This document shows positions 16,978-18,039 of a stretch of 64,000 nucleotides of DNA, piece by piece. Positions within the stretch are counted from its first letter, which is position 1, and each line of letters opens with the position of its first letter. The notes under the pieces are model-generated. The model had not been told where the DNA came from. It was given only the letters and a program-made list of their open reading frames with translations, and searched no databases. The stretch is from an uncultured Elusimicrobia bacterium. Lineage in GTDB: Bacteria; Elusimicrobiota; Elusimicrobia; Elusimicrobiales; Elusimicrobiaceae. The position numbers were made by a program, and so were the translations under genes. The DNA lies in contig CAMECJ010000001.1 in the NCBI GenBank assembly GCA_945913025.1, forward strand, positions 186,001 through 250,000, written 5' to 3'.

Positions 16978-17052
16978 CGTCATTCCCGAATGTTTCTATC
17001 GGGAATCTGTCGTTTCGTAACTACAAGATTCCGCACTAAAACTCTACGGAAT
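16978..17052 (-). repeat. Composite palindromic repeat, copy 1
   Basis: Minus strand: ATTCCGTA...GCGGAAT, a linker with CGAAACGACAG, then ATTCCCGA...TCGGGAATGACG. These are two adjacent inverted repeats forming two hairpins. Copy 2 at 17961-18039 is the same element in the opposite orientation. It lies in the 5' leader of the prepilin mRNA. Confidence 0.8.
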
Positions 17053-17092: not shown

Positions 17093-17119
17093 ATAGTATC
17101 AAAAAAAAAAACGGGTCAA
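17093..17119 (-). promoter_or_regulatory. T-tract extended -10 promoter of prepilin gene
   Basis: Minus strand TTGACC, a 15-nt spacer (CG, eleven T, GA), TACTAT, with TGATACTAT as extended -10. Its -35 lies 5 nt from the -35 of the divergent RNA promoter. Confidence 0.75.
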
Positions 17120-17123
17120 CCCC

Positions 17124-17151
17124 TTGACAATTTTCCAAATTCGCTTATACT
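17124..17151 (+). promoter_or_regulatory. Sigma-70 promoter of structured RNA candidate
   Basis: Perfect TTGACA, 16-nt spacer, TATACT on the plus strand. No protein start follows with a ribosome binding site. It is the best-matching promoter in the window. Confidence 0.75.
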
Positions 17152-17157
17152 AGTTCA

Positions 17158-17630
17158 TAAGAAGTTTATCCGCAGGGTCCGACAGGGTGTCGCCCTTAGC
17201 AGTACGCGGATGGCGGTAGCGGCAATCGTTACCGCAACAGAAACGGCAGCAGCGCCGGAAGAAGTTGGCCTGCGCGCTCGGGCGGCTAGAACGGTTCGTC
17301 AAGAACCGGACGGGTGCTTGAAAGGCGCAGAGCAAGATGTTACGGCGGCAGAAAAATGATGCGTTAAGTGTTATTTTTCCGTTTATGGTTTCCGTTTCGT
17401 AAGACGTCATAAAGCGGTAAGGGGTGAGCGGAGGCGGTGGCCGCTTCACGCCTGTAAGCAAGTAAGACGACTGTCGTCGGGTTTCCGCCATAGATTGCTT
17501 GGAGGATAACCGGACGCAATGGGCGGCATAAATCCCGGTATCGGCCGGCAAGACGCAAAGAGGAGAAGCAAAGGAGTAAAGATGAGTAATAGTTAAACCC
17601 CTCGGTTTTAGCAACCGAGGGGCTATTTTT
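17158..17630 (+). ncRNA. Candidate structured non-coding RNA (about 470 nt), family unknown
   Basis: The unit runs from a consensus promoter to a strong intrinsic terminator, with no convincing ORF inside. Predicted pairings by eye: ATCCGC (17168) with GCGGAT (17206) enclosing AGGGtcCGACA/TGTCGCCCT; GCGGTA/TACCGC near 17215; CGGTTC/GAACCG (17292-17308); GACGAC/GTCGTC (about 17466); and CCGCC-ATTGC (17485-17498) with GCAAT-GGGCGG (17516-17526). Several long stems closing in order suggest selection for RNA structure. I looked for the conserved cores of RNase P RNA (GAGGAAAGUCC, CAGAA..GGCUUA) and tmRNA (3' CCA end, tag ORF), and for 4.5S RNA, and found none. A tiny ORF (ATG AGT AAT AGT TAA after AAAGGAG) sits just before the terminator. 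Confidence 0.6.
17598..17630 (+). terminator. Terminator of structured RNA candidate
   Basis: CCCCTCGGTT TTAGC AACCGAGGGG followed by CTATTTTT: a 10-bp stem with a T-run on the plus strand. Confidence 0.88.
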
Positions 17631-17680
17631 GTGCTGTTTCCGGCAAACGCTTCGTAAATGTCAGCCGCATGTACCCATTT

Positions 17681-17711
17681 GTCATTCCCGAGGACTATAA
17701 TCGGGAATGAC
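17681..17711. repeat. Half copy of composite palindromic repeat
   Basis: GTCATTCCCGA ... TCGGGAATGAC inverted repeat, matching the second hairpin of the composite repeats at 16978 and 17961. Confidence 0.75.
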
Positions 17712-17820
17712 GACAAAAAATAAATGCAGTGCAGAACAGAATAATATTATAGAAGATGCCTAATTGGATAAATTCGCTTCAAATTGCTCGGGTCAGTTAT
17801 ACGAAAAGAATCACTACTGG

Positions 17821-17960: not shown

Positions 17961-18039
17961 CGTCATTCCGTAGGGTTGTAGTACGGAATCTCGTTGTTGC
18001 GAAACGACAGATTCCCGATTACAGATTTCGGGAATGACG
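17961..18039 (+). repeat. Composite palindromic repeat, copy 2
   Basis: CGTCATTCCGTA...TACGGAAT, linker GCGAAACGACAG, ATTCCCGA...TCGGGAATGACG. About 79 bp with two hairpins, in opposite orientation to copy 1 roughly 0.9 kb away. Confidence 0.8.

Follow-up and report, generated by a model that had tools for sequence, protein, structure and literature searches.

A previously undescribed structured RNA from a genus of Elusimicrobia carries a conserved Shine–Dalgarno mini-ORF at the edge of its terminator

The DNA analysed here (the window) is a 64-kb stretch of 64,000 nucleotides from an uncultured Elusimicrobia bacterium (assembly GCA_945913025.1, contig CAMECJ010000001.1), in which an original prediction made from the letters alone had placed a possible structured RNA of about 0.47 kb at positions 17124–17630. 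In this region, here called RNA-1, a scan of the window found the claimed consensus promoter, with a 16-nt spacer between its two boxes, and the claimed strong terminator, whose stem is directly followed on its 3' side by CTATTTTTG. The −10 box and the terminator are 446 bases apart, and the span from promoter to terminator fits the predicted length. The 3' tail reads AAAGGAG-TAAAG-ATG AGT AAT AGT TAA-A-CCCC (17570–17601), that is, a Shine–Dalgarno (SD) sequence and a complete open reading frame (ORF) of four codons, with the terminator beginning one base past the stop codon. The statement that the region holds no credible ORF therefore stood for long ORFs but overlooked this SD-AUG-stop mini-ORF (17570–17596). 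The features are listed in Table 1.

Table 1. Positions of RNA-1 features in the window and locations of RNA-2
Feature	Position	Strand	Basis
Sigma-70 type promoter	−35 TTGACA 17124–17129; −10 TATACT 17146–17151	+	Promoter scan, 11/12 matches
RNA-1, predicted transcript, ~470 nt	17158–17630	+	Start inferred from promoter, ± few nt; fold, homologues, covariation
Conserved 3' domain (covariance model R1)	17481–17627	+	Own copy 79.6 bits, E 8.8e-20
SD sequence AAAGGAG, 5 nt upstream of AUG	17570–17576	+	Read from sequence
Mini-ORF ATG AGT AAT AGT TAA, peptide MSNS, 4 codons	17582–17596	+	Sequence; homologues
Intrinsic terminator, 10-pair stem 17598–17622 and T tract	17598–17630	+	Window scan; both-side paired changes across the genus (alignment columns 185–210)
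RNA-2, own genome	G000:C6:27592–27750 (L192)		R2 match; tail peptide MEESTR
RNA-2, other loci	L150–L161, L162–L191, L193–L210		

As had been claimed, the region is unusually structured. The minimum free energy of RNA-1 was −182.1 kcal/mol, compared with −157.4 ± 5.9 kcal/mol for dinucleotide shuffles (z = −4.15), and none of 100 shuffles folded as low. A consensus structure derived from 12 close relatives contained 149 pairs, with 98.4% of cells paired against 37–46% in slid versions; this comparison is favoured by the derivation of the structure from the same 12 relatives, yet the counts of both-side changes also exceeded those of every shuffle. Such changes, occurring in at least one sequence, were seen in 26 of the 149 pairs, compared with 8.5 ± 2.0 in shuffles and 1–6 when partners were slid by 1–3 columns. 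Column-shuffled alignments folded 13 standard deviations worse (alignment z = −13). The body of RNA-1 forms a multibranched fold, closed by a helix between the 5' end and the segment just upstream of the 3' tail. In the close clade this helix reads UAGGCC/GGCCUA and in other clades GCAGGC/GCCUGC, a covariation that was read by eye from the alignment.

The comparative search proposed with the original prediction succeeded, in that homologues exist within the genus and covary. A plain DNA search gave short matches in 15 additional genomes from this family, iterated nhmmer searches recovered full-length relatives of 366–553 nt running from promoter to terminator, and searches for glyS and lipA were used to find the RNA-1 interval in further genomes. 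The promoter pattern TTGA...TATACT(A/G) was present in 29 of 29 full-length aligned homologues. R1, the covariance model of the 3' domain, gave one strong match (E < 1e-10) in 56 of the 66 genomes of the genus, where RNA-1 is single-copy. Model E-values are rough, absences mean little because many genomes are incomplete, and genome counts are not counts of events because related sequences are not independent. R1 matches in the rest of the phylum were weak, and all of those examined except one in the sister genus (G067) look spurious; weak matches beyond RNA-1 and the RNA-2 described below (inspected at L121–L123 and L125–L130) look like ends of protein genes or A-rich stretches with terminators and were rejected as homologues. 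RNA-1 is mostly syntenic: glyS, in some genomes together with a pilin gene, flanks it on one side, and lipA with a small lipoprotein-like gene flanks it on the opposite side. It is inverted relative to these neighbours in five genomes (G012, G017, G018, G020 and G034; loci L059, L038, L039, L050 and L051), as expected for an independent unit. A phage or plasmid origin was rejected on the basis of this chromosomal synteny and the lack of any RNA-1 match in phage and plasmid collections. RNA-1 is best explained as a dedicated, vertically inherited chromosomal gene.

Searches with the covariance models of Rfam 15 (4227 families) produced nothing near the gathering score in the window region or at 14 further RNA-1 and RNA-2 loci. 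The reported lack of an RNase P, tmRNA or signal recognition particle (SRP) RNA core was upheld: RNase P RNA (RF00010; G000:C7:65669–66013, 212.8 bits) and tmRNA (RF00023; G000:C9:24264–24610, 130.8 bits) are encoded elsewhere in the genome, and neither family matched in the RNA-1 region. No long reading frame is kept on either strand. The longest plus-strand stop-free stretches do not exceed the shuffled expectation in nearly all relatives; those on the minus strand are longer, but their frames differ between relatives. Of the 36 distinct alignment gaps, 26 are of 1 or 2 bases. A 188-aa minus-strand ORF (17150–17716) was rejected as a gene since it had no Pfam match and no frame was kept across these gaps. 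A literature search within one library found no paper on such RNAs in Elusimicrobia. In the family, a chicken caecal isolate, An273, has been reported as Elusimicrobium minutum at 94% 16S identity (PMC6069880). Neither of the two findings that would have refuted the original prediction, a known RNA family or a conserved frame, was obtained. The region 17124–17630 is almost certainly an RNA gene, and RNA-1 is a previously undescribed structured RNA outside every known family.

The tail proved to be a constant part of this RNA. In 43 of 43 aligned RNA-1 homologues, a brief reading frame opens with AUG and closes with a stop codon at the terminator edge, and most of them have a clear SD. Among 39 distinct mini-ORFs, 36 have 5 codons, two have 8 and that of the window has 4, with no other lengths. 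The fetched loci contained 324 terminator-like hairpins. An SD-mini-ORF was carried by 104, all of them belonging to RNA-1 or RNA-2, and the same script found none at the approximately 220 other terminators. Within the window, only 1 of 26 terminator-like hairpins, that of RNA-1, is preceded by such a module. A pattern scan for the shared tail in the genome_contigs collection gave one match, in an unrelated metagenome-assembled genome, which is roughly as many as chance alone would give; that collection may lack near relatives.

The SD-AUG segment is predicted to be the most open part of the RNA, with a mean unpaired probability of 0.63 compared with 0.33 in the body. In the window copy it is predicted to be 83% unpaired, which exceeds every 15-mer of the body. 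Sequestration of the start codon by the 5' end of the RNA was considered and rejected: the window copy and one close clade show it (consensus helices 1–2, never varying), but only 10 of 71 sequences can form at least 5 such pairs, and mean pairing is lower than in control windows.

The encoded peptides vary between relatives (METSR, MKEST, MNETK, MHSCN, MKGRP and MTPSN, compared with MSNS in the window). Of 14 single-base differences between ORFs, a small sample, 10 are non-synonymous and 4 synonymous, where 20% synonymous would be expected by chance. As judged from these comparisons, the mini-ORF is kept as an ORF, with its start, stop, frame, length and position, and not as a fixed peptide. 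It is probably translated.

Weak R1 matches led to a second structured RNA, RNA-2, which is about 400 nt long and has the same kind of promoter and the same SD-mini-ORF-terminator tail. Searched against 336 genomes, a covariance model built from the body of RNA-2 only, without tail and terminator (R2), gave a single match in each of 49 genomes, all of them among the 66 of the genus. The tail was no part of R2, so its association with RNA-2 is independently supported. The tail was read directly in 43 of the 49 copies; 5 were not resolved by the script, and in 4 of these other readings revealed the full tail or an SD-AUG. As with RNA-1, no Rfam family matched. The RNA-2 of the window's own genome sits between a same-strand helix-turn-helix (repressor-like) gene and a convergent ABC-transporter-like gene. 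In the sister genus, the G067 locus (L124:1343–1582) holds a shorter RNA with a promoter, a fold z-score of −4.1, an SD, a six-codon ORF (MSKLTN) and a terminator.

A model in which RNA-1 engages ribosomes would account for these features as follows. A strong housekeeping-type promoter would produce a structured transcript, whose multibranched body would be closed by the long-range helix between the 5' end and the stretch before the tail. The open tail would then offer a ribosome-binding site and, ahead of the terminator, an ORF that runs from AUG to stop over a few codons, usually four, and would most likely serve as a minimal docking site from which the ribosome is released at once. Downstream of the AUG, an initiating ribosome occupies about 15 bases, and the stem of the terminator begins approximately 16–20 bases from the A of the AUG; the module is thus close to the minimum length of an ORF that would allow both initiation and termination before the stem. 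We infer that ribosome loading is the selected property of the tail, in which case selection would act on initiation or termination rather than on the peptide. At the inspected loci the next gene downstream is convergent (the lipoprotein gene and lipA for RNA-1, the ABC-transporter-like gene for the own RNA-2, and a 369-aa ORF at L124), which leaves no gene for the RNA to control in cis. RNA-1 may instead work in trans, with ribosomes as its target or partner or as the means by which it is held, protected or sensed. That ribosome engagement is the working principle of RNA-1, as a trans-acting RNA with a minimal docking ORF, is the most likely reading of the sequence comparisons, although we give it somewhat short of an even chance. 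More tentatively, RNA-1 and RNA-2 may represent a new class of RNAs, with at least two structured members per genome, that dock ribosomes through a self-contained 3' minimal ORF used for loading and not for coding.

Several observations weigh against ribosome docking. One RNA-2 copy (G009) lacks the mini-ORF, and the SD is weak in some others (L204–L210). Hydrophobic residues are depleted in the RNA-1 peptides (9 seen, 24 expected from base composition), and there could be some selection on the peptide. The window copy itself diverges in the GGUUGAU...UUCGGCC hairpin of the 3' domain, which is nearly invariant in relatives; lacking this hairpin and having the shortest ORF, it may be a divergent member.

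The alternative that fares best is that RNA-1 is a plain large structured RNA with a job unrelated to translation, whose mini-ORF serves only its own metabolism, the ribosome shielding the 3' end or insulating the terminator. The body is indeed the larger, covarying part, the ORF always lies at the terminator edge, and the two-codon minigene of axe-txe has been proposed to stabilise its mRNA in cis (PMC8708949). In the same genome, the RNase P RNA has a terminator-like hairpin after it but lacks an SD-mini-ORF tail, so stable RNAs here do not need one, and the mini-ORF was rejected as a general tail of stable RNAs. Terminator hairpins, moreover, already protect RNA 3' ends. We regard this explanation as unlikely.

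Were RNA-1 a dual-function RNA, its polar peptide of 4–6 residues would itself be active, or would modulate a partner, alongside the RNA. The peptides of both RNAs are polar and of a similar type (METSR, MEESTR, MNETK, MKEST), and the depletion of hydrophobic residues in those of RNA-1 points the same way. An A-rich open tail alone would favour polar codons, however, and residues change freely between close relatives, as the 10 non-synonymous changes and the range from MSNS to MKGRP, MHSCN or MTPSN illustrate; this reading appears improbable. The mini-ORF could also be a regulatory minigene that tunes global translation, either through peptidyl-tRNA drop-off or by tying up initiator tRNA and ribosomes. 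Its 4–6 codons, good SD and accessible region would suit such a role, and early peptidyl-tRNA drop-off is documented (PMC10192219). Here a 400-nt structured body would be superfluous, and there is no fixed last-codon signature, the last residues being K, N, R, S, T and others, which makes the proposal quite improbable.

A divergent housekeeping RNA, either SRP RNA or 6S RNA, is suggested by the apparent lack of both in the genome. The SRP models RF00169 and RF01854 gave no match in RNA-1 or anywhere in the own genome, nor did the 6S model (RF00013) match in the genome. RF00169, the small-SRP model, found no SRP RNA in 40 relatives either, whereas most control genomes match it; the SRP RNA of this genome and its relatives has either diverged strongly or been missed. 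Even permissive thresholds gave no SRP or 6S match in RNA-1. As judged by R1, RNA-1 is restricted to a single genus, whereas the failure to detect SRP RNA extends to a neighbouring family of the order. Its length of about 470 nt, multibranched fold and mini-ORF suit neither SRP RNA nor 6S RNA, the latter a rod of about 180 nt with a central bubble, and we consider this identity very improbable. Finally, although attenuators are built in just this way, with a short ORF immediately ahead of a terminator, a cis-acting leader peptide controlling read-through can be practically dismissed, given the opposite orientation of the downstream neighbour in the inspected RNA-1, own RNA-2 and L124 loci and the lack of a run of any one regulatory codon.

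With regard to the neighbouring genes, a prepilin promoter had been claimed back-to-back with that of RNA-1, the −35 boxes being 5 nt apart, such that the two transcripts could interfere. A minus-strand TTGACC does lie at 17119–17114, four bases from the −35 box of the RNA, but the −10 that goes with it is weak (TACTAT at 15 nt), and the scan did not call this promoter. The pilin gene is absent beside RNA-1 in most close relatives, where the glyS–lipA gaps measure 1.0–1.1 kb, and the interference idea is therefore unsupported. Palindromic repeats of the form GTCATTCCCGA...TCGGGAATGAC are dispersed around the RNA locus (window positions 16979–16989, 17681–17711 and 18028–18038), with 8 matches at no more than one mismatch in the window compared with 0.75 expected.

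Among known systems, SgrS/SgrT and RNAIII are dual-function regulatory RNAs whose proteins have functions and are longer than a few residues. VcdRP is likewise a regulatory RNA holding a translatable ORF with its own SD, and its product VcdP is a functional protein of 29 aa (PMC8672173). RNA-1 resembles these in that an ORF with a ribosome-binding site is conserved as an ORF (43 of 43 rows; 4, 5 or 8 codons). Its ORF differs in having 4–6 codons and a position fixed against the terminator, and in that the peptide is not conserved; purifying selection on it was not seen (4 synonymous to 10 non-synonymous changes, a small sample, with hydrophobic residues depleted). tmRNA is also structured, holds a short ORF and interacts with ribosomes, a contact that is predicted for RNA-1, but the genome has a normal tmRNA elsewhere, and RNA-1 has no tmRNA match and an ORF that starts with an SD-AUG. 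Bacterial minigenes such as lambda bar are few-codon ORFs that act by translation and not through their product, as proposed for RNA-1. The axe-txe minigene is a two-codon, cis-acting element of an mRNA leader (PMC8708949), whereas that of RNA-1 forms the 3' end of a separate structured RNA. OLE, ROOL and GOLLD similarly have long, highly structured, covarying non-coding bodies and poorly known functions (PMC12286853); RNA-1 differs in lacking an Rfam match, in having no match in phages or plasmids where ROOL and GOLLD are marked by a phage context, in being a genus-restricted, single chromosomal copy, and in ending in a conserved SD-mini-ORF, there being no mention of a Shine–Dalgarno sequence or ORF tail for the three in PMC12286853.

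For a lineage that has received little study, two genus-wide structured RNAs outside Rfam, one in 56 and the other in 49 of 66 genomes, add substantially to what is known. Their tail blurs the line between coding and non-coding RNA, with start, frame, stop and position conserved and the peptide not. If ribosomes do load there, the tail would be a novel means by which a structured RNA makes contact with the translation machinery; if they do not, some other reason would be needed why dozens of species keep the AUG, the frame and the stop.
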